This document shows positions 6,534 to 29,511 of a stretch of DNA of 33,868 nucleotides, one piece after another. The translations under genes were made by a program, and so were the position numbers. Source of the stretch: an uncultured Pirellulaceae bacterium (GTDB lineage: Bacteria; Planctomycetota; Planctomycetia; Pirellulales; Pirellulaceae); NCBI GenBank assembly GCA_937981585.1, contig CALJOA010000149.1:1-33868 (forward strand), read 5' to 3'. The notes below the pieces were generated by a model that did no database searches, was not told where the DNA came from, and saw only the letters and a list, made by a program, of their open reading frames with translations. Positions within the stretch are counted from its first letter, which is position 1, and the number at the start of each line of letters is the position of its first letter.

Positions 6534-7826
6534 TCAAAGCGAACCGTCATCGAGAATTGGCCAGAAAATAGCCGCCAGCCAGATCACCGTTGTGGTCCCT
6601 GGAACGTAGTCGAAGATCGCGACTTCGGTTAGGGAATTGAGGATGATTACGAACGAAACCAGCGCCGCTAGGCGATACTTACCACCGAGCGAAACGAAAA
6701 GCTGTTGAAGAAACATCATCAGCCCGCAGAAGCCTGCAAAAACTCCGCCTGAAAACGCCAGACTAAGAACAACATTGTGCGGATGAAGCAAGTACTGTTT
6801 CTTGGCTAGATAAATCTTCGATACGCCGGGGCCGTATCCAATCAACGGTCGCTCAGCAACCAATCTTGCGCAATACTCCCAAATAGCCGCACGACCGGTG
6901 ACCGATGTAATCTCTTCTACGTCTCCCGATCTAGTCGCCGAACCAATCAATGATGATGACACCGGGCTGATCTTTTCTGACGAAAACAGGACCAACGCGC
7001 CCAGCAAAATAGCCACCCCCAACGCCGCAGTGATCGGCAAGATGTCAACTCGCAACCAAAACCTTCGGTAGACCACAAGAATCGAAACAACGGCAGCTAC
7101 GAGTGCTACGCGAGTTCCTGTAAAGACCATCGTCGTGAAACAGAGCAAAAGTAGCGGTAGGCAAATCTTCCAGCTCTTCTTTCCCTCAAACCAAAGGTAG
7201 GACAAAAGCACAATCATCAGAACGACCACACCCGAAAGCACATTAGGGTGCGACATTCCTCCCATCCGTTCAACCGTTTCGGTCTTGCTGGTATGCTCGA
7301 TCATTACGCCATACTCGGGCATAAACAAATAGAGAAACCAGCTTCCCAGCAATGTCAGCATCATTGTTGACAGGACTGTTTTGAAGAATCGTTTGGTTCC
7401 CAAAGTGTAAAAAGCAAAGGGCGAAAAAAGCACGACCGCAGTCATAGTGACAAGGTATGGAAACGAGTAAGTCTTGTAAGGCGAGAGGACCGTTCCCCCA
7501 AAAACGAACAACACGACGCCCAAAACCCAAACGCCGGGAAAGCTCAGAAACGCCAACCGAACTTTCGGCACAAACAGAAATCCGTAAATCCCGAGCAAAC
7601 CAGCAGCGCCCGTTGCGGCCAGTCTCAACAAAAGCTCCAATCCTCCGGCCAGCTTAACCTTTTCGTTCGTTTCGATGTGCGTCTGATTGAGAAACAGAAC
7701 ACCGAACAGAACCATCGCAGTAATCGGAACGATCGCACTCTCGATAAACTCATTAAGCGAAAACACCGACCCACCATCGTCGCCGTGGTCAAATCCTCGA
7801 TTTGCTCCGAGTGTTGGGTTGGACAT
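6534..7826 (-). CDS. O-antigen ligase / polymerase family membrane protein
   Basis: A 430-residue polytopic inner-membrane protein with about ten or more hydrophobic segments. Features typical of the O-antigen ligase/Wzy_C family are the FTGTR segment (235-239), a large loop at about 282-345 with GRAAIWEYC (311-319) and ERPLIGYGPG (325-334), and HPHN (348-351) near the end of the loop, followed by further membrane helices. Such proteins join lipid-linked glycan repeats to each other or to an acceptor on the periplasmic side. It follows the Wzz-type gene on the same strand after about 150 bp, so the two probably act in one exopolysaccharide or O-antigen-like pathway. Ligase and polymerase cannot be told apart by sequence alone. 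Confidence 0.88.
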   Translation of the reverse strand: MSNPTLGANRGFDHGDDGGSVFSLNEFIESAIVPITAMVLFGVLFLNQTHIETNEKVKLAGGLELLLRLAATGAAGLLGIYGFLFVPKVRLAFLSFPGVWVLGVVLFVFGGTVLSPYKTYSFPYLVTMTAVVLFSPFAFYTLGTKRFFKTVLSTMMLTLLGSWFLYLFMPEYGVMIEHTSKTETVERMGGMSHPNVLSGVVVLMIVLLSYLWFEGKKSWKICLPLLLLCFTTMVFTGTRVALVAAVVSILVVYRRFWLRVDILPITAALGVAILLGALVLFSSEKISPVSSSLIGSATRSGDVEEITSVTGRAAIWEYCARLVAERPLIGYGPGVSKIYLAKKQYLLHPHNVVLSLAFSGGVFAGFCGLMMFLQQLFVSLGGKYRLAALVSFVIILNSLTEVAIFDYVPGTTTVIWLAAIFWPILDDGSL

Positions 7827-7978
7827 TTAAACCTGAATCTAGTGCAAGATAGTCGTGAATGAAGCAGTTTGCTGGAGTGAACATCACGTCAGACACGGCT
7901 TGCCGATGCCAATTCAATCACTGGCGAAGCTGTTTGCTGACAGAGCTGCAACGCCAGCCAAAACTGGCGACCAAATGA

Positions 7979-9847
7979 TTAAAAGACAAACAGGAACAAA
8001 TACGCTGCGATCAAAATTGAGAAAACTCCTACCAGAGAGAAGATGCTGACCTGACTCTCGGCCCGACGGCGCCATGTTTCAATTCTGGACCGAGCCGCAC
8101 TGGATACCTGCGAGTGGTTGGGCTGGTAAGCCTCCTCTCGCTGGAGCTCCTGATGCAGCGGGGGTTGGGCACGGTATTCGCCTTGAGCATATTCTTCGTC
8201 CTCGGCGTATCGCCCCTCATTACTGAAACCTGCTGGTGAATCTGCTGGTTGAAAATCTTCTCGAACAGCCCCCGTTCGCGCCAAAGCAGGTTCCCGGACC
8301 AATCGACGAGGACGAGTCTGCGTCTGCCCGACCGACTCAGGAGGATAGTATCCCTGATCGAGTCGTCGCTGCCGATTCTGTCGATCCATTTCATAGCCGA
8401 TCTTGAAATCTTTCAAGAACGTCATCACAGTCGCCATCAATGCAGAGACAGCGGCACCGAGAACACCAAACATCGTTCCACTTGGGAATACTTTCTTGGG
8501 AACAAGACAAGCCGACTGAGCGACCTTCACGTTTGAGATTCGCTCACTATCGAGGGCGTCATTGGTTACACTTTCAGCCGTCTTCTCCGCGATTCCCATC
8601 ATCGTCTTTTGCATGATTTCGACATTTCGAACCATCGCATTCTCTTGTACGACAAGCTTGTTGAGTCGATCGACTTCTGCAACCTTCATTGCGATCAATG
8701 CTTCGGTCGCTTGCAAACGTTTCTGAAAACCTTCTGCGTCCGCAGAGGCCTTTGTCAACATGACAAGAATCTCTTTGTGAGCCGGATTAGGACTTTTCTG
8801 TGCTTCCTTGAATGTTTGCGGAATCCTGTTGTACTGGCTCTTCGCTTTCTTGATTGAATTGCGAATCGCGGTCAGTTTCGGATTACTGCTGTTGTACTTG
8901 GATGCCAAATCCGACTCTTGAATTTGCAAATTGTAGAGAGCTTCACGAGCCCTATCACGCGCCAATGATGAAGTCGTTGTGTTACCGCCGACGATAAACT
9001 CTGGAATCTTAGAAAACGACTTTTTCATTTTGAGAGATTTCTCTTGTGACTCGCTCAGCTTTACCGCTGTCGTCAAGGCGTCGAGTCTTAACTGATTAAT
9101 CTCCCTCTGCAGGAGGTTACGAGCGCTGCCCACATCCAGCACATTGAGGCTGGAACGAAACACCTCAAGTTTTTGTTCAGCCTCCAGCAACTCTTTCTTG
9201 CGGAGCTTTAATTGCGAGTCAAAAAAGCCCCCCGACTGCGGCGTATTAACTTTGACGTGAGTTTTTTGGTATTCGTCAAGATAATTCTGGACTACATCCT
9301 GAGCTAAAAACGGAGACTGTGCCTTAATGCCGACCGAAACTACCGTCGTGTTCTTTTCGTGTTGAACGTCGATTCCTTTCATCAGCCGTGTAATTGCCTT
9401 GTTGCGTCGATTGAGGCCTTTGATTTCGTCGCTGGTCAAATCCGTTTCGCTTTGATCGACCGTCGCTCCGCCAAGTTGGATTGACGGAAGCCCATTGATA
9501 AAGCGACCGATTGCGGAATTCGGTTTCAGAATTCGCTCCACACCCACGTTATCAACGACTTTTCCTGCCAGTTCGCGACTGCCAAGCAAATCAACAACCG
9601 ATTTGACCTCAGTCTCCCGAGAGTCTTGAAGCGAGACTTTTCCTGCCGATGTTGTTGGACCAGCACCAACACTGCTGCGACCAACCTGAACAAACAGCTT
9701 TCCGTCCGACGCGTACTCTCGCGGAACTACCAAGTAGGCCAACACGAAAAGCGAAAAGAAAACGAGGAACCAAAGAATGAACTTAATCGGCGATTTGAAG
9801 ATCGCCATAACTACGTCGATGATGGTGAAGGACTGGGTGGAGTTCAT
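7979..9847 (-). CDS. Wzz/GNVR-type polysaccharide chain-length protein with long C-terminal tail
   Basis: A polysaccharide co-polymerase of 622 residues. It has TM1 at about 22-42 followed by REYASDGKLFVQVG, the usual start of a Wzz domain. A long helical periplasmic region (about 205-440) likely forms coiled coils, with the GNVR-like segment near 405-450. TM2 spans about 456-477. Unlike Wzc proteins there is no kinase domain with Walker motifs. Instead a polar 120-residue tail, rich in Arg, Gln and Tyr (Tyr near 500, 501, 547, 553, 558 and 574), leads to a third hydrophobic segment at 601-622, the very C-terminus. Its role is to set glycan chain length with the downstream O-antigen ligase-like protein. 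The tail and third segment are unusual for the family and their role is unknown. Confidence 0.88.
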   Translation of the reverse strand: MNSTQSFTIIDVVMAIFKSPIKFILWFLVFFSLFVLAYLVVPREYASDGKLFVQVGRSSVGAGPTTSAGKVSLQDSRETEVKSVVDLLGSRELAGKVVDNVGVERILKPNSAIGRFINGLPSIQLGGATVDQSETDLTSDEIKGLNRRNKAITRLMKGIDVQHEKNTTVVSVGIKAQSPFLAQDVVQNYLDEYQKTHVKVNTPQSGGFFDSQLKLRKKELLEAEQKLEVFRSSLNVLDVGSARNLLQREINQLRLDALTTAVKLSESQEKSLKMKKSFSKIPEFIVGGNTTTSSLARDRAREALYNLQIQESDLASKYNSSNPKLTAIRNSIKKAKSQYNRIPQTFKEAQKSPNPAHKEILVMLTKASADAEGFQKRLQATEALIAMKVAEVDRLNKLVVQENAMVRNVEIMQKTMMGIAEKTAESVTNDALDSERISNVKVAQSACLVPKKVFPSGTMFGVLGAAVSALMATVMTFLKDFKIGYEMDRQNRQRRLDQGYYPPESVGQTQTRPRRLVREPALARTGAVREDFQPADSPAGFSNEGRYAEDEEYAQGEYRAQPPLHQELQREEAYQPNHSQVSSAARSRIETWRRRAESQVSIFSLVGVFSILIAAYLFLFVF

Positions 9848-10283: not shown

Positions 10284-10797
10284 TGGACTATACAGCTCTT
10301 TGTTAGGGACGACATCGAAACCACAAGTCCCCAAGCCTCAGGGGTGCGTTTCGACACTCTCGTAAACCATTCAATCTTAACCCAAAGGCCACCACGTAGT
10401 CCAATGGCTGGCGATGGAATCGAACACTGGCAGTAACGATTATTGTAGCTGGGCAGAATCCTCAGATGGCTTTCTGCAAAAAGAACACTTTTCCATCCTC
10501 GGTTGAAAGCTGATACGCCTCGAATCTGAAATTCAGATAGGCCTTTTTCGCAGCTCTACTCCCCTCCCAAACTTCAAACGTCAAGCCATATTCAGTTTGT
10601 TTTCAAGCTCCCTACAGGACATTAAGATGCGTGTATGTCACAATACCGAAAACCGCTTTGAAGTTCACTTTGCTGCTTCGCCAAGACTGAAACTCGCGAT
10701 CGAGGGCGATTCCAGAATCCGGAGAGATAGACTCACACTTTGAAGAAGAAATGCACGATTGGTACAGAACGCCAGATTGCCTTCGGATGAATTAAAC
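10284..10797. other. Intergenic region, no gene recognised
   Basis: This is the divergent region between the small membrane protein (minus) and the archaemetzincin-like gene (plus). Frames here are short and overlapping with no protein character. A segment near 10410-10430 resembles a tRNA T-loop on the minus strand, but no cloverleaf can be built around it. I see no clear promoter. Confidence 0.55.
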
Positions 10798-11712
10798 ATG
10801 AATGACAAATTGCTTTTCTGCCTTTTATTTACATGCTTGACCGCCATACCGGCGACTGGATTGGCACAAAACACAAAGCCACTCACGCCAGCAAAAATCA
10901 AGAAGACGATTCGGCAGCTCAAGCCGCTTCACAAGGAGATCGCAGAACCTCAACCAGGGGACTGGCTTGCGTCTCACGAGGAGAAAGGCCAAACGTTTGC
11001 CCAGTATGTTCGGATCCGGCCCAACATCCTCACGCGGCAACGAAAGAAACTTTACATCCAGCCGATCGGCGAGTTTTCGGAGAAGCAAACTGAGCTGATC
11101 AAGCTCAGCCATGAATTTCTCGGGATCTATTTCAATTGCGAAGTAGAAACGCTTGAGACCAAATCTGAAAAAGATATTCCCGAAAATGCGCAACGCGAAC
11201 ATCCGAGTTGGGGTGATCATCAGCTTCTCACCACTCACGTATTGGACAAAATACTCGGTCCCGAGCTGCCCGATGATGCGTTCGCTACGATCGCGTTTAC
11301 CTCATCGGATTTGTGGCCGGGTGATGGATGGAATTTTGTGTTCGGTTACGCTTCGTTTCGCCAGAGGGTCGGTGTTTGGTCGTTATATCGGTTCGGTGAT
11401 CCCGAAAAGAGCGATGAAGAATTCAAGCAATGTCTGCGACGAACGCTCAAAGTCGCCACACACGAAACGGGGCACATGTTTTCGATTCAGCATTGCATTG
11501 CCTATCAATGCAACATGCAGGGCAGCAACAGCCTTCCAGAATCGGATCGCCAGCCGACTCATCTTTGTCCCGAATGTCACGCGAAGATTCTCTACGCAAC
11601 CAAGGCCAACCCGATTCAGCGGTATGAAAAACTAATCGAGTTTTGCAACAAGCATGAGCTGACTGAAGAAATGAAGTTCTTTCGGACGTCGAAGGCCAAA
11701 CTCGAAGAGTAG
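10798..11712 (+). CDS. Secreted archaemetzincin-like zinc metalloprotease
   Basis: 304 residues with a signal peptide (MNDKLLFCLLF... to about LAQ, residue 24) and a metzincin-type zinc site. The pattern is HETGH (222-226), then a third histidine 232 directly followed by Cys233, with Cys238, Met240, Cys257 and Cys260. This closely follows the archaemetzincin signature HExxHxxGxxHCx4CxM...CxxC, in which the four cysteines bind a second zinc. Two deviations: the glycine between the helix and third ligand is Ser229, and the Met-to-Cys spacing is one shorter than the classical 17. Archaemetzincins are usually cytoplasmic, so export is notable. ATG 10798 follows GGATG at a normal distance and starts the signal peptide; the frame opens earlier at 10759. 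Substrate unknown. Confidence 0.85.
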   Translation: MNDKLLFCLLFTCLTAIPATGLAQNTKPLTPAKIKKTIRQLKPLHKEIAEPQPGDWLASHEEKGQTFAQYVRIRPNILTRQRKKLYIQPIGEFSEKQTELIKLSHEFLGIYFNCEVETLETKSEKDIPENAQREHPSWGDHQLLTTHVLDKILGPELPDDAFATIAFTSSDLWPGDGWNFVFGYASFRQRVGVWSLYRFGDPEKSDEEFKQCLRRTLKVATHETGHMFSIQHCIAYQCNMQGSNSLPESDRQPTHLCPECHAKILYATKANPIQRYEKLIEFCNKHELTEEMKFFRTSKAKLEE

Positions 11713-13413: not shown

Positions 13414-16400
13414 CTACCGTTCACCCCACTCGCACAGCGAATCAACAAAGCTGGCTGTTCCGTCCCTCAACCAGGAATCCAGTTGAGCCTGCTGCTTCAA
13501 CTGCTGGCCACGCTGTAGGGGAACGACAAAGAAATTGCAGCTGACTTCAGGCAAGCCCGACATATCGCTCCACAACTTTTCGAATTGAGAAACGGGGAAG
13601 ACATCTTCCTGGCCGTGGCCCCAGCGCTTCTTCACGTCTTTAATCGTGATATAAGTCGGCATTCGTTGGCTCAGCACGCGAATCGCCTTGTCGACCTTTT
13701 CCAAATCGTTTAGCGACTCGCGGTCCAGACCAAACACGCTCAGTAACTGGTCGATGTCAATCCAAGTCGTCATTGAATTGTAAAACGACAACTTAAATTC
13801 GTCTTCTTCGCGTGGCATCGAAAGCCCTTCAAGCAACCTCGGGCTACCGTTGACACGAGCCAAACCTCCACCGCGATCCTCCAAACGGCGCGAGATGACT
13901 TCGAACGACAAGCACTTCTGACTCGAAATATGCAAACCCAACAATCCCGGATCGACACTCGCACCAAGCGTATCAACGTTGTGAAGCATCAAGTATTTCA
14001 GCTCGGGTTGCCGCTGCAACAATCCCGAAAGAACGCCATTGCGAAGCATGTTTGGCACTTCAAACCAGTGCCCCACCGGATGCAAACACTGCATCGGCAT
14101 GTTGTCGCGATAGTCGCTACCTTCACCGGCTTGGCGAGCCCAACCGATCAGCGCCGTTCGCAAGCTCTCTCGCATTCGCTGCTGTTGTTCGTCTAGCATC
14201 TGTTGCGGCATTTCCTCCCATTGGAACTGCAGGTCACGAACCATCGGAACCGTTCGCAGGCCGATGTAACGGCCCCGAGACAACAGGACCTCGCCGGGAT
14301 AGTCGTAGTTTTTGACATCACTGAGGTGATCTTCAATCGCCTGGTGAGTCATGTACCCGGTTGTGATAATGTGCGGGAACGGCCGGTCAAATTTCTTTCC
14401 AACGCGCCTGCTTTTAGCCAAATGGACTTCGATAAAGCTACGATGCTTGCCGTCGAACTGGCTGAACGGATGAAGCCCTTTGACAACGCCGGCGCCTTCG
14501 GTCCAACGGCTCCCTACACCAGCCGACAATGTCACGACGGCGACTTTTCCATCACGTATCGCCTGCTCACCAACCGACCGATGCTTTTCGTCAACACCAT
14601 CGCGCGATTCAATCACGTCTTCGGCTTCAACGTCCGTAATACTGGTAGTGACAGGCAGCCGATTTTGGGCCAGGCCATAGCGGCCAGATTTTAAATCGGA
14701 ACGAACTTGTTCATGTTGATCTCGATCAAACCCAATTCGCCGAAGCAATTCATTGAGTGTCTCAGTTTTCTCCCGGGTTGATTTTCGCCCGGGCAGAATC
14801 CCTTCGACCAGTTGCTGGAACGCTTGTGAGTGCCCTTCGTTGCGATACTCGCTTCCTAACAACTCCATCTCGGTTCGGTAGAGAGCCGAAAGTTCTCGCG
14901 GAGGAAGCTTCAACCATCCTGGAATCATCAGCGCGTAGTACTCGTTCGGCATCCGGGCATCGTCGGCGTCAAGAATCTCACCCCAGGTTCCGTTGTCGTT
15001 GATCTCGAAGTTGTACACAACCGGTTCCATCGCAAAAGGCAGCCGTGTTTCAAGCCGTTTTTTAGTTGCTGACATCGCTGATTGGAGCCATTTTTGCGCC
15101 TCTGGCTTGATCTCCGGATCGAAAATAAAGCCCATACCGCCACCGGCCATTCCGCCGAGCATCCAAAAGCCCCAGAACTTGTCGCCGTACTTTTGCTGAC
15201 ACTGTTCGACCAGCGAGTTGGTGAACAGGTTGGTACACCACGGAATGATCTTTTGCAGTGGCCCGAAAAAGTTCCGGTGTGTTGCCGCGCCGACCGCTTT
15301 AATGTCGCCTTTGTTGAGCGCGTCGGTGATCTCATCGAGAATTGAAATCGCGTCTTGTCGGGCTTCCCATTCTTCGGGCGAACGAAGTAGATATTTCTCG
15401 GTCACCATTTCGAGAATCGGCCCAACGTTCTGAGCCATTCCGCCGTGAACCAACACGAGACTGTCCTGAAGTTTCTGACGTGTTTCAGAGCTGATTTCTT
15501 CTTTGGAAAACACGGAGTGCTTTGGCAGTAAACGACCGCGACTGATTCCATATTCCGGATCGCCTTCACTGGCAGCCGCACCTTGAATCAGTTTAATGCC
15601 CGGCCAAACGCCTCCCGAGTCCTGCCAACCGCCACCAGACCCACCAATCCACTCGCCCAAAATTGCACGGGCCGCAATGATGCGCCGATCGGCTTCTTCC
15701 AAAGCACCTTCCAGCGAAGAAACCTGGCCAGTCGCTCGCATACACAGCGAAATCAGTGAACCGAGAAGGTTAGTTGATACCGCCAGCCGTGAGCCCTTGG
15801 GGATGTCATTGACCTTGCTAACAATCTCTAGGCCCAAACCAGGACCGATCATTCGTTCGAGCAGCGTCTCTATGTCTTGGCCGCATCCTTCCATTCCAGG
15901 AGGAACGATCCCAGCCGCGATCACTGCGGCTTTGAGAAGCCCAAGGTAATCGCGAGCAAAATCAAACACTTCCGCGATGGTTGTGATCTCGGCGTGGGTT
16001 TTTAAGTCGATGCTGACGAGCTTCAACACCGGTCGGTCAATCACTCGCAAATAGCATTCGATCGGTGGATCGGGACTGGCATCGCGATCCATCACGCCAA
16101 GGTTAACCGAAGCGTTGATCACTCGGGCGCCTGACGGATAGTCCATCCCCAGAAAGAAAATATCGCTCCAACCGCTATGAGTAAAATCCATTCGCACAGC
16201 TGTTGTTTCCTTGAGAATCGGAAACGCAACGCTTTCCTCGGGACGCTCGATCAGCTCTCGGCGGAATCGGATCGGATGATCGGTCGGATGGCCGGTTCGA
16301 AACATCCATTGATTGCCTCGGACAGTACGAACGCTTCTGCGAACCTGATCGGCGAGGGTCTGGAACGCAAGTTCGTGGTAGGCTTGAGAAAGCGCACTTG

Positions 16401-16788
16401 AAAGTGCGTCACTGGCACCGCTTTCGGATTGAGCTTCCAACAGCGAGTCGATCGATTCGACGAAACGGCGACCAAGTAAATGCTGGTAGCTGCTGAAAGG
16501 TATATTCCCGACAGCGCGACGGTCAAAATGCCGAGGCAAGTGGAAACGATGAATTGACGACAGGAAGAACAACGCCCGGACGCGGTGGTACAGGTTCTCG
16601 GTGCCACGCCAGAACTTGTCCAGCGCAACAGTATCTGCGATCAGCCGATCAAAGTCGGCGTCGGCACAAACCAAATCGAGCGATTGGTTTCGAATCGAAT
16701 CATCTTCGGACTCAATGATCTGAACAAGCCGATTGTCGCAGCCTGACTCGGAGTCGATTGAGTTATCGGAAGTAGCTTTAACATCCAT
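13414..16788 (-). CDS. Fucokinase-like GHMP kinase fused to UDPGP-type nucleotidyltransferase
   Basis: 1124 residues with two enzyme modules. Residues about 190-575 are a GHMP sugar kinase of the L-fucokinase type: RMDFTHSGWSD and SGARVINASVNL (199-230), a motif-2 region PKGSRLAVST (330-339), GGGWQDSGG (385-393), LVHGGMAQNVG (446-456) and MAGGGMGFIFDP (547-558). Residues about 745-1120 resemble the eukaryote-type UDP-sugar pyrophosphorylase (UDPGP) family: LSAGVGSRW (754-762), HPVGHWFEVPNML (903-915), LHNVDTLGASVD (935-946) and FYNSMTTWID (1002-1011). Residues 1-180 and the linker 600-740 are unassigned. The predicted role is to phosphorylate a free sugar at C1 and convert it to a UDP-sugar. 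In known bifunctional fucokinase/GDP-fucose pyrophosphorylases the order is reversed. Motif 2 is degenerate (R and A replace glycines), so activity or substrate may differ. The start overlaps the upstream gene's stop (TAATG). Confidence 0.82.
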   Translation of the reverse strand: MDVKATSDNSIDSESGCDNRLVQIIESEDDSIRNQSLDLVCADADFDRLIADTVALDKFWRGTENLYHRVRALFFLSSIHRFHLPRHFDRRAVGNIPFSSYQHLLGRRFVESIDSLLEAQSESGASDALSSALSQAYHELAFQTLADQVRRSVRTVRGNQWMFRTGHPTDHPIRFRRELIERPEESVAFPILKETTAVRMDFTHSGWSDIFFLGMDYPSGARVINASVNLGVMDRDASPDPPIECYLRVIDRPVLKLVSIDLKTHAEITTIAEVFDFARDYLGLLKAAVIAAGIVPPGMEGCGQDIETLLERMIGPGLGLEIVSKVNDIPKGSRLAVSTNLLGSLISLCMRATGQVSSLEGALEEADRRIIAARAILGEWIGGSGGGWQDSGGVWPGIKLIQGAAASEGDPEYGISRGRLLPKHSVFSKEEISSETRQKLQDSLVLVHGGMAQNVGPILEMVTEKYLLRSPEEWEARQDAISILDEITDALNKGDIKAVGAATHRNFFGPLQKIIPWCTNLFTNSLVEQCQQKYGDKFWGFWMLGGMAGGGMGFIFDPEIKPEAQKWLQSAMSATKKRLETRLPFAMEPVVYNFEINDNGTWGEILDADDARMPNEYYALMIPGWLKLPPRELSALYRTEMELLGSEYRNEGHSQAFQQLVEGILPGRKSTREKTETLNELLRRIGFDRDQHEQVRSDLKSGRYGLAQNRLPVTTSITDVEAEDVIESRDGVDEKHRSVGEQAIRDGKVAVVTLSAGVGSRWTEGAGVVKGLHPFSQFDGKHRSFIEVHLAKSRRVGKKFDRPFPHIITTGYMTHQAIEDHLSDVKNYDYPGEVLLSRGRYIGLRTVPMVRDLQFQWEEMPQQMLDEQQQRMRESLRTALIGWARQAGEGSDYRDNMPMQCLHPVGHWFEVPNMLRNGVLSGLLQRQPELKYLMLHNVDTLGASVDPGLLGLHISSQKCLSFEVISRRLEDRGGGLARVNGSPRLLEGLSMPREEDEFKLSFYNSMTTWIDIDQLLSVFGLDRESLNDLEKVDKAIRVLSQRMPTYITIKDVKKRWGHGQEDVFPVSQFEKLWSDMSGLPEVSCNFFVVPLQRGQQLKQQAQLDSWLRDGTASFVDSLCEWGER

Positions 16789-26865: not shown

Positions 26866-28113
26866 ATGTCGCTTCCTATTGTAACCCTCAACACGGAAGA
26901 AAAGTGGGACTGCCATCAATGTGGTGTTTGCTGCCGCGGTAGCTTGGTACCACTGAGTAAACAGGACGCAGATCGGCTTCGTAGTCAAAGCTGGGAAAAA
27001 CAGCCTGGATACGAGAACATTCAAATCATGGTCCCGCATCGCGGCGCCGAAAGTAAACATCGGCTTGCGCATCGGCCCGACGGATCGTGCGTGTTCCTAA
27101 AGGACGATGGGCTATGCCTCATTCATTCCAAGCTGGGGCTGGAAGCCAAGCCAACGATCTGCCAGACATTTCCAATGCAGTTGGTCCCTCAAGACAAGCA
27201 GGCCGTGTTGACCTATCGTCGAGCGTGCCCCTCAGCGGCCGCCGACAAAGGCATCGGTGTCAAGGAGCGCGTGCCCGGGATCGAGCAACTGGTTAAATCC
27301 GATCGCTTAACAGCCGAACCAATTGTTCCTCCACTTTTGAAGACTGGCGAAAAAAGAAAGTGGAAAACGATCCGATGTGTATTGGAATCAGTTGGTTCGT
27401 TACTGCGAGATGAGCGATTCCCTCCTGTACGGCGAATTGTTCATGCGTTGCAGTTTGCCAAAAACATTGACGCGGCAAAGTCACGGCGCATGTCAGAATC
27501 AGATATCGTTGAGCTGGCAACAGCACTGGTCGAGCTGGCCCCGCATCAGTCCAAACCATTTTTTGACGACCGAAAAACGCCCAAGGGAATTTCCAAAGCG
27601 ATGTTTCGCTTGATGGCCGTTTCCTGTGCTCGGCTTCATCCCTATTGCCGACACCAATCGAATTGGGCCACACGAATGGACTTGGCAAAAACCTCCTGGA
27701 AATGTTTTCGCGGCAAGGGCCAGACACCTGCGTTTGGTGATGGCTTTCCAACATCAACGTTTGAAACTCTTGAGCAACCGATCGGCATCAAGCCTCCAGA
27801 GGTATACCTGCCGCTTACCCGAATGATTGAAACCACGTCTGCGACATATCTCTATGCACTTGCCGATCGAAATGGATGGACGGTGACGGATAGCATCCGA
27901 GGACTGGCGTTACTTTTCCCAGTGGGGATGTGGATGCTGCGCTGGCAAGCATCCAGCCATGAGCCAACGGTCGAAGACATGCTGAACATTGTGGTTGCGC
28001 TTGACCGAAGCCAGGGATACAAACCGCTTTGCGGTCGGCAGCAACGATTGAAACTTTCGATGCTTGGTTTCAATGGAGAGCTTGAGCGGCTGGTTGTTTC
28101 TTACGTGAGTTAG
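26866..28113 (+). CDS. YkgJ-type cysteine-cluster protein
   Basis: 415 residues. The N-terminal ~110 residues carry the YkgJ/FliB-like cysteine pattern: CHQCGVCC (16-23), then Cys75, Cys84 and PTICQTFPMQ (Cys99), matching the CxxCxxCC...C...C.xFP arrangement thought to bind zinc or an Fe-S centre. The remaining ~300 residues are without a recognised domain, longer than typical YkgJ proteins (about 100-150) and closer in size to lysine-N-methylase FliB, though no flagellar gene is nearby. ATG 26866 has no clear Shine-Dalgarno sequence. The gene's stop overlaps the convergent minus-strand gene by 4 bp. Confidence 0.8.
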   Translation: MSLPIVTLNTEEKWDCHQCGVCCRGSLVPLSKQDADRLRSQSWEKQPGYENIQIMVPHRGAESKHRLAHRPDGSCVFLKDDGLCLIHSKLGLEAKPTICQTFPMQLVPQDKQAVLTYRRACPSAAADKGIGVKERVPGIEQLVKSDRLTAEPIVPPLLKTGEKRKWKTIRCVLESVGSLLRDERFPPVRRIVHALQFAKNIDAAKSRRMSESDIVELATALVELAPHQSKPFFDDRKTPKGISKAMFRLMAVSCARLHPYCRHQSNWATRMDLAKTSWKCFRGKGQTPAFGDGFPTSTFETLEQPIGIKPPEVYLPLTRMIETTSATYLYALADRNGWTVTDSIRGLALLFPVGMWMLRWQASSHEPTVEDMLNIVVALDRSQGYKPLCGRQQRLKLSMLGFNGELERLVVSYVS

Positions 28114-29252
28114 GTTTTCATTCGCTTCAACTTCGATTCAGACTTCCTGTTTGAATCCGATTTCATTTCCTTTTTATCCGATTTCATTTCCTTTGAATCA
28201 GGTTTTTCCTTCGAATCCGATTTCATTTCCTTCGAATCCGATTTCTTTACGTCAGTCTTTTTTGAATCGGCCTTCTTGGCGTCGGACTCGCTATTCTTTT
28301 TTTCCTTGCTTTTCATATCGTCGCGCATCTCAGGCGACTTTTCTTCTTCAGGAAGTACCGCCTCAAATTCAGCCTCAATGTCGTCAGGTTCTTGGACCTC
28401 AGAACTGATTTTTCTCAAAACCGAAAACTTGGGAGAATTTGTATTTGCGTTAACCGCAGCCAACATATGCCGCCGGTCAAGTTTTACGTAAACCGTAGTC
28501 TCTGTTCGAGAGCTGAATACTTTTCGCTTACGATCCGAGTAGAACTGAACGATCTCGTAGTACGCGCCTTCGCCAGGCTCCAGTCCGTCGGTTTTGAAAG
28601 AACGCTTCGCGATGACACCGACATTCGAATGACACGGCAGCACTTCCCAGGTGCCGTGTATCTCTTTAGGCGAAGGACCGGGAGTACCGTTGACGATTCT
28701 GGTAAGCAACGAAGTATTGGCGTTGATTAACTCCATCGGCGCAGGCAACTTCATTCTGGCAGGTTGTTTCCTCTGAGGTTTTTTAGATTTGTTTGGCTTG
28801 GCTGACTTGCTCCGGCCCTTGCTCATACTTTTGCGTTTGCTCCTAGAGGGCAACGGAGTTCTTGGACTAGCTTCCTTGGCCCGTTTTTTGGCTTGGGCTT
28901 TCCGAGCCTCTTTGGCTTTAGCCTCTTCCAATTTGGCTTTGGCCTCTTCCAATTTGGCTTTGATGCTTTGCTTCTTGTCAGCAGGATCTATTTCCTCAAT
29001 CGTGATCACTGGCTTCTTTTTTTCGCCGCGAGCTTGCGTCTTGGGTGACTCGCTTTCGGCAAGCTTACTCAAGATGCTCTCTCCATTGTTTTCTGGCAGC
29101 GACGCGATTGGCACAGATACCTGCTCAACGGCAGCCATTGAGACTTTCGCTTCACCGGCATTTTCCAACTGGGAAAACGCTCCCCAGGCGGTAAACACCA
29201 ACGCAGTGGAAATGGCAGCAATTGCCCCAAAAATTGCAAAGTAATTTCTCAC
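28110..29252 (-). CDS. Anchored Lys/Glu-rich repeat protein, unknown function
   Basis: About 380 residues. A hydrophobic segment near the N-terminus (about 5-22) is followed by a charged helical region with repeated LEEAKAK units and a KSKRKSMSKGRSKSAK-like basic stretch. A compact middle part (about 185-290: GTWEVLPCHSNVG, YYEIVQFYSDRKRKVF, TVYVKLDRRHMLAAV) looks like a folded beta domain. The C-terminal ~55 residues repeat KSDSKEM-type units. The folded part may carry the function; I do not recognise it. GTG 29252 is chosen because AAGAGG sits 6 bp upstream; a GTG at 29273 is the alternative. It converges with the YkgJ-type gene with a 4-bp overlap. Confidence 0.7.
   Translation of the reverse strand: MRNYFAIFGAIAAISTALVFTAWGAFSQLENAGEAKVSMAAVEQVSVPIASLPENNGESILSKLAESESPKTQARGEKKKPVITIEEIDPADKKQSIKAKLEEAKAKLEEAKAKEARKAQAKKRAKEASPRTPLPSRSKRKSMSKGRSKSAKPNKSKKPQRKQPARMKLPAPMELINANTSLLTRIVNGTPGPSPKEIHGTWEVLPCHSNVGVIAKRSFKTDGLEPGEGAYYEIVQFYSDRKRKVFSSRTETTVYVKLDRRHMLAAVNANTNSPKFSVLRKISSEVQEPDDIEAEFEAVLPEEEKSPEMRDDMKSKEKKNSESDAKKADSKKTDVKKSDSKEMKSDSKEKPDSKEMKSDKKEMKSDSNRKSESKLKRMKT
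28151..28260. repeat. Intragenic tandem repeats encoding the KSDSKEM tail
   Basis: About four to five degenerate copies of a 20- to 30-base unit containing TCCGATTTCATTTCC run through this segment, within the 3' end of the minus-strand repeat protein gene. The repeats stay in frame, giving the Lys/Ser/Asp-rich tail. Confidence 0.7.
28921..28962. repeat. Perfect 21-bp tandem duplication inside a gene
   Basis: The 21-base unit beginning GCCTCTTCCAATTTGGCTTT is repeated exactly (28921-28941 and 28942-28962). It encodes two identical KLEEAKA heptads in the minus-strand repeat protein. Identity at the DNA level suggests recent slippage. Confidence 0.85.
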
Positions 29253-29511
29253 GACAAACCTCTTACGCGACACTTATAGATGTGACTCAAAAACTTCCTT
29301 CCATGGTGCTTGGAAAGCAAAGCAATTGCTACCATTTGTGGATGAACTTTTTATTACTGGGCTTTTTTCAGCATGAGTACACGAGAAATCCTCAATATCC
29401 TCGAAATCCGAAGCGCCCCAAGCCGACCAGAAGGTATTAGCAAAACTTGGCAAACAGCTTGCGCGAGAGTTTGATGCAGGTACTCCATCGCAGCCCCAGC
29501 GTCAAAAACGC

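Follow-up and report, generated by a model that had tools for sequence, protein, structure and literature searches.

The window, a stretch of 33,868 nucleotides from an uncultured Pirellulaceae bacterium (contig CALJOA010000149.1), carries on its minus strand a gene for a fusion protein, in which a kinase resembling L-fucokinase precedes a pyrophosphorylase of the UDPGP family. Immediately upstream lies a gene for a relative of GalU, here called the partner. We regard it as probable that the fusion is a bifunctional sugar-1-kinase/nucleotide-sugar pyrophosphorylase, accompanied by a non-catalytic GalU relative as a possible regulator. The reading draws on sequence and predicted structure, i.e., on the folds, their order, conserved catalytic residues, the loss of a loop and gene linkage, and from these we infer activity, substrate, co-expression and regulation. 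The architecture, as judged from the sequence, appears to be of a salvage type leading from free sugar to nucleoside diphosphate (NDP)-sugar, and the partner may, by analogy, be a sensor of the product. Positions of all features are collected in Table 1.

The open reading frame (ORF) of the fusion is real, and profile searches, the AlphaFold model and Foldseek agree on the order kinase first, pyrophosphorylase second, as the initial annotation of this DNA had proposed. When searched separately, neither half was placed in another family. NCBIfam PRK13412, the model for the L-fucokinase/GDP-fucose pyrophosphorylase FKP, matched the kinase half at residues 196-568 (E 2.2e-18) with its kinase part only (positions 614-944 of 974), and Pfam UDPGP (PF01704) matched the second half at residues 902-1040 (E 2.2e-10). 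The latter score of 40.3 bits lies above the gathering cut-off of 22, and the 65.4 bits obtained on PRK13412/NF009948 lie below the curated cut-off of 721. GHMP models of Pfam gave no match at E 1; on the fusion Pfam recognises only UDPGP, and NCBIfam only the FKP kinase part. Alignment of the kinase half by hhalign to a genuine FKP (L111, carrying PF07959 and GHMP) reached 99.2% probability over 334 columns. With a local kinase profile four FKP-type proteins scored 34-87 bits, L018 and L111 being one gene in this comparison, and other matched GHMP-like ORFs at most 19 bits. A local profile of residues 640-1121 matched stand-alone UDPGPs of the local set at up to E 3e-30. The AlphaFold2 model, built on an alignment of 69 rows, had a mean confidence (pLDDT) of 86.6 and a predicted TM-score (pTM) of 0.87; pLDDT fell below 50 at residues 1-17, in the kinase loops 332-335 and 385-388, and at 667-674 and 1055-1061. 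Among the best 50 Foldseek matches listed, full-length FKP ranked first, its kinase part aligning with a TMt of 0.78, the heptokinase WcbL with 0.80-0.81, and UAP and UGP chains with 0.48-0.61. Residues 1-180 stay without assignment, as noted earlier: a helical domain is predicted at 20-180, and neither hidden Markov models nor hhalign gave it a convincing match to proteins of other families in the local set. The same had been said of residues 600-740, which are now accounted for in part, since a stand-alone UDPGP aligns weakly through its N-terminus to residues ~680-706 (E 0.0014, small local set).

Residue counts for the fusion refer to 69 aligned rows taken from 77 full-length proteins, the eight omitted being mostly close relatives of included rows. 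Roles in the kinase half were mapped from R592, W599, D601, T602, E751, Q761 and D762 of FKP, as described in excerpts of PMC11982464. The residues of motif 1 and of the catalytic motif given in Table 1 are invariant, as are the hydroxyl residues S338 and T339 of the phosphate loop (69/69), and the predicted kinase site resembles an L-fucose site except at the C3-OH contact. The canonical GHMP loop reads PxxGxGxSS. Such a loop, present in the FKP-type relatives, is replaced by PKGSRLAVST in all fusion rows and in 16/16 further homologues (L002-L017, the lowest 42% identical), with a single change of Lys to Arg. The initial annotation had called this loop degenerate; the motif is there, although its invariance across relatives makes it a family signature and not a sign of decay. 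The phosphate loop of the kinase is rewritten yet strictly conserved.

For the pyrophosphorylase half, active-site residues of Aspergillus nidulans UGP were taken from excerpts of PMC10470519 and mapped via stand-alone UDPGPs, UGP itself being outside the alignment and motif positions being set partly by eye. Eight of them are kept in 69/69 rows, namely K770, G906, H907, N937, D939, E987, N1004 and K1098 (UGP Lys135, Gly227, His228, Asn256, Asp258, Glu307, Asn329 and Lys403), and UGP Lys292 is replaced by Arg972 in every row. Membership in the UDPGP family would lead one to expect use of UTP; the base pocket would not. The genome of the window also has a separate gene of the UDPGP family (L131), so that the fusion need not be the source of housekeeping UDP-sugars. 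Stand-alone UDPGPs with ORFs of 375-488 amino acids (L020, L023, L029 and L143) were among those relatives of the C-terminal half that scored best, and the loop LNGGMATR was visible in all four.

The fusion is a coherent, widespread bacterial family. Searching genome contigs at E 1e-3 gave at least 579 stretches with a relative, of which 80 were retained as loci, the window being additional; the phyla named among these loci are Planctomycetota, Verrucomicrobia, Chloroflexi, Armatimonadetes, Lentisphaerae, Kiritimatiellaeota and KSB1. As to domain order, the same single-ORF architecture occurs in 77 full-length proteins including that of the window, with at least 57% pairwise identity. In phylum samples, where matches were counted at E 1e-30 or better, the fusion was found in 17/294 genomes of the window's phylum, 22/240 of the phylum of 'Verrucomicrobia subdivision 3' (G299), 3/201 of that of Caldilineaceae (G306) and 15/151 of that of Armatimonadetes (G297), three of the 15 being clearly partial matches. 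The window's genome has one copy. The three genomes of its own bacterial family in the sample of the window's phylum match only weakly, in the UDPGP region, so presence is patchy. In a FastTree phylogeny of 77 rows the phylum labels of 74 rows required 7 changes against a minimum of 5; the tree is mostly clustered by phylum and does not, therefore, show frequent horizontal transfer. The sole match in 72,556 plasmid records was a 51% homologue on a plasmid of Hymenobacter volaticus (Bacteroidota; NZ_CP095065.1, L185 15001-18232), where the partner bears the annotation sugar phosphate nucleotidyltransferase and stops 27 bases before the fusion match. The fusion frame of this plasmid is broken in more than one place and the upstream partner frame is open, which may reflect a pseudogene or sequencing error. 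In the Armatimonadetes sample one match (G885:C300:5775-7337) was confined to residues 605-1123 and lay in a 546-amino-acid open frame, which may represent a UDPGP half standing alone or result from a contig end.

The initial annotation overlooked how broadly this family is distributed, and also that a loop-less GalU homologue is conserved beside the fusion. The model of the partner shows a high-confidence GalU fold with YngB as the best Foldseek match (TMt 0.73, E 3e-21), and its score on the GalU model (TIGR01099) is 87.7 bits, below the curated cut-off of 326.8. In an alignment of 38 of the 65 partners collected, the G-x-G-T-R loop was absent from all 38; a short variable stretch before LPLQ replaces the YngB loop and the lysines following it. 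Q77, G82, D105, E167, K168 and P169 were invariant (38/38), and the position which we take to be that of the second metal Asp held Asn in 26 rows and Asp in 12. Presumably, the partner retains residues that serve in binding base, metal and sugar-phosphate. More distant partners (Hymenobacter, L185, and L010) have a loop of normal length with degenerate residues, and the comparison suggests a stepwise loss of catalysis under retained linkage. By tblastn the partner was adjacent to the fusion in 75/80 loci, 73 times directly upstream and twice overlapping (L052, L064); in the other five it lay 1.2 kb away (L043), was cut by the contig end (L049, L077) or was elsewhere in the assembly (L066, L076). 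It was found in 14/14 genomes tested, once with an in-frame stop, these genomes coming from the 80 loci as ten without an adjacent partner in the initial ORF calls and four others, with L049, L061, L075 and L077 outside. Unlinked GalU-type genes (L176-L179) retain G-x-G-T-R, and among rows above 150 bits only those of L176 matched the pattern. The L176 gene (G297), in which an RGTR loop is intact, reached 172 bits with the partner profile, more than the other unlinked genes of GalU type; the ORF after it was judged by eye to be MurG-like.

A kinase-first order is in itself not unprecedented, since the heptokinase-adenylyltransferase HldE/RfaE is a bifunctional enzyme of this order, both halves of which have folds unrelated to those of the fusion. 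Known bifunctional salvage enzymes were said in the initial annotation to be pyrophosphorylase-first, and this agrees with excerpts on B. fragilis FKP (PMC11982464) and on zebrafish DrGKUP, a glucuronokinase/putative pyrophosphorylase (PMC3938481), as well as with all four FKP-type relatives scanned, in which PF07959 precedes the kinase (L111, and L019, L021 and L028, which are truncated where their loci end). FKP (NCBIfam PRK13412; PDB 9iit, 9iip) shares with the fusion the kinase fold, the catalytic residues and a one-chain passage from free sugar to nucleotide-sugar, but its kinase is C-terminal and its pyrophosphorylase is PF07959, whereas in the fusion the kinase comes first, UDPGP second, and the P-loop and motif 1 differ. 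No PF07959 was found in the fusion by Pfam at E 1, and hhalign of the UDPGP half and of the N-terminal part against FKP L111 gave 0.3% each. As these defining features were looked for and are lacking, the fusion is not an FKP, though it probably works like one. DrGKUP, in the excerpts available, likewise joins a GHMP sugar-1-kinase to a pyrophosphorylase domain, which unlike that of the fusion is N-terminal and of the short bacterial type. With the UDPGP family (UGP, UAP/AGX, USP; PF01704) the second half shares the fold and the phosphate, metal and catalytic residues; it differs in having mostly lost the uridine-pocket Gln and the second sugar Asn, in a conserved insert of ~50 residues, in the fused kinase and in its distance from the Pfam profile (E 2e-10). 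A kinase-first FKP/UDPGP fusion was not found reported in literature listings and abstract openings, most subscription papers being outside this scope, and the reversed, non-FKP architecture with a UDPGP half, claimed as new from the outset, is apparently undescribed.

In the proposed mechanism the FKP-type kinase would phosphorylate the anomeric OH of a free sugar, consuming a phosphate donor and yielding sugar-1-phosphate; the sugar would most likely be L-fucose-shaped, such as L-fucose, L-galactose, D-arabinose or a relative. The UDPGP-type half would then convert sugar-1-phosphate and a nucleoside triphosphate (NTP), by family UTP, to NDP-sugar and pyrophosphate. The upstream GalU-fold protein is probably made together with the fusion and, with its NTP-binding loop lost, may be a non-catalytic binder of nucleotide-sugar that regulates the fusion in the manner of GMPPA, which according to excerpts of PMC11228364 lacks catalytic activity, binds GDP-mannose and acts as an inhibitor of its paralogue GMPPB. 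That pair would provide the precedent for control of an active pyrophosphorylase by a non-catalytic paralogue, although its two proteins are of one family, while here the partner is GalU-type, the enzyme UDPGP-type and the regulation hypothetical. A bolder and more doubtful version, which we put forward tentatively, is a two-gene unit of a kinase with a rewritten loop, possibly using another phosphate donor or Arg-assisted transfer, a UDPGP half of altered base or sugar choice, and a GalU that lost its catalytic loop step by step, with a degenerate loop of normal length in Hymenobacter and L010 and a shortened one in the main clade, and so came to serve as a cross-family nucleotide-sugar sensor. 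If this were true, an NDP-sugar pathway absent from current maps would exist in several phyla. The fusion is conserved and widespread, its description in the profile libraries searched extends to one half only, and it is a candidate for an unknown sugar salvage route. Its invariant non-glycine loop tests how much divergence from their signature GHMP kinases tolerate without loss of function. With the linked loop-less GalU, bacteria would have a counterpart of GMPPA that works across families, and a kinase-first UDPGP-based fusion could serve as a new tool for nucleotide-sugar synthesis.

A number of observations weigh against the proposed function. In the kinase, Arg334 and Ala336 stand where G715 and G717 of the FKP loop are placed (69/69; FKP loop numbers assigned by motif, not from the B. 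fragilis sequence), which makes ATP a putative donor, and Ile210 replaces T602, the C3-OH contact of FKP, in 69/69. At two pyrophosphorylase positions of less certain alignment, the uridine-pocket Gln198 of UGP corresponds to residue 840 (R 45, A 11, K 9, Q 3, S 1), and the second sugar Asn, UGP Asn331, to residue 1006, which is Asn in 8/69 rows and lost in 61/69. Of the initial proposal of a free sugar to UDP-sugar salvage enzyme, the salvage-type pairing of kinase and pyrophosphorylase stands, and UDP as product is not established, the Gln being replaced in 66/69. The partner was not found at E 1e-20 in six of nine genomes with a diverged fusion or no partner seen (81-94% complete), and one partner carries an in-frame stop (L066; G297); it is hence not indispensable. 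Besides the partner, no neighbouring gene family recurred in more than 11 of 81 sequences (80 loci and the window), and alpha-L-fucosidase GH29 was not associated with the fusion (7/17 carriers vs 82/277 others, Fisher p 0.41), nor was it found in the window's genome.

As an alternative, the UDPGP half alone might be catalytic and the kinase half a pseudokinase that has been retained for sensing sugar or as a scaffold, as the rewriting of the glycine-rich loop in 69/69 rows (Gly to Arg, Gly to Ala, Thr to Val) and the poorly defined model at residues 332-335 would suit; we think this rather improbable, as dead kinases usually lose some of the catalytic residues, and here the general base D390, Q389, E379, R199 and two loop hydroxyl residues are invariant. 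It is slightly more likely, though still unlikely, that the fusion is an FKP analogue for GDP-L-fucose, its UDPGP half switched to GTP, which would be a special case of the bifunctional kinase/pyrophosphorylase preferred here. The sugar-site residues of the kinase are mostly those of FKP and the uridine-pocket Gln is lost; the missing GH29 association and the Ile at the C3-OH contact speak against it. About as improbable as a pseudokinase is an active partner, a nucleotidyltransferase with a new mode of NTP binding in an operon yielding two nucleotide-sugars, which would be compatible with the same function of the fusion. Its high-confidence fold and the invariant Q77, G82, D105 and K168 argue for activity, and the shortened, variable stretch in place of GalU's GxGTR and lysines together with Asn at the presumed second metal Asp in most rows argues against. 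With a source assembly in 158 contigs, 80.2% complete, one might suspect that the gene fusion arose through misassembly or is peculiar to the window's genome, but this is refuted by the same architecture in chromosome records (CP036432, CP036526) and throughout the full-length proteins. The bifunctional enzyme with a non-catalytic GalU relative stays the preferred reading.

Table 1. Location of the fusion, the partner and their parts in the window (residue numbers are those of the respective protein)
Feature	Position	Strand	Basis or remark
Fusion gene, 1124 amino acids	13414..16788	minus	ATG start; helical domain, FKP-type GHMP kinase, UDPGP-type pyrophosphorylase
N-terminal helical domain, residues 20-180	16249..16731	minus	AlphaFold secondary structure
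L-fucokinase-type GHMP kinase, residues 185-606	14971..16236	minus	PRK13412; hhalign to FKP; Foldseek 9iip, TMt 0.78
Kinase motif 1, residues 199-210 (R199, W207, D209 = FKP R592, W599, D601)	16159..16194	minus	69/69 rows
Phosphate loop PKGSRLAVST, residues 330-339	15772..15801	minus	Invariant, 69/69; PKGSGLGTSS-like in FKP-type relatives
Kinase catalytic motif E379...Q389-D390 (FKP E751, Q761, general base D762)	15619..15654	minus	69/69
Linker helices, residues 607-677	14758..14970	minus	AlphaFold secondary structure
UDPGP-family pyrophosphorylase, residues 678-1121	13426..14757	minus	Pfam UDPGP; local profile; Foldseek UAP and UGP
Nucleotide-binding loop, residues 755-772 (G757, G759, R761, K770)	14473..14526	minus	Four residues 69/69; aligned with stand-alone UDPGPs
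Family-specific insert, residues 846-898	14095..14253	minus	Many invariant residues; mostly absent from six stand-alone UDPGPs aligned
Sugar-phosphate and metal residues H907 to D939 (UGP His228, Asp258)	13972..14070	minus	Both 69/69
Catalytic Lys1098 (UGP Lys403)	13495..13497	minus	69/69; alignment with stand-alone UDPGPs
Partner, GalU-fold protein, 293 amino acids	16788..17669	minus	Last stop base is first base of fusion ATG (one-base overlap)
Partner residues 11-21, shortened/lost G-x-G-T-R...K NTP-binding loop	17607..17639	minus	38-row alignment vs YngB and unlinked GalU-type genes

Gene neighbourhood was considered as a clue to the substrate and rejected, since no common theme emerged. 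Several recurring neighbour families stem from close relatives, and at least one, lying over missing partners, looks like antisense ORFs. Pfam searches with ten ORFs of five loci (that of L064 being antisense over the partner) revealed no common theme, and neither did those with 32 further same-strand neighbours, for which the first 25 of 51 families, ordered by member number, had one member each; among the latter a glycosyltransferase 2 and a 3-keto-disaccharide hydrolase occurred once each. Elsewhere in the window an ORF of 387 amino acids (28110-29273, minus strand) had no Pfam match at E 0.001, and a protein of the archaemetzincin metalloprotease family (10759-11712, plus strand) scored 99.2 bits, below the NCBIfam cut-off of 145. 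On the minus strand at 6534-9847 an O-antigen-ligase-like protein (Wzy_C) stands beside a chain-length-determinant-like protein (weak NCBIfam match), perhaps an exopolysaccharide locus.

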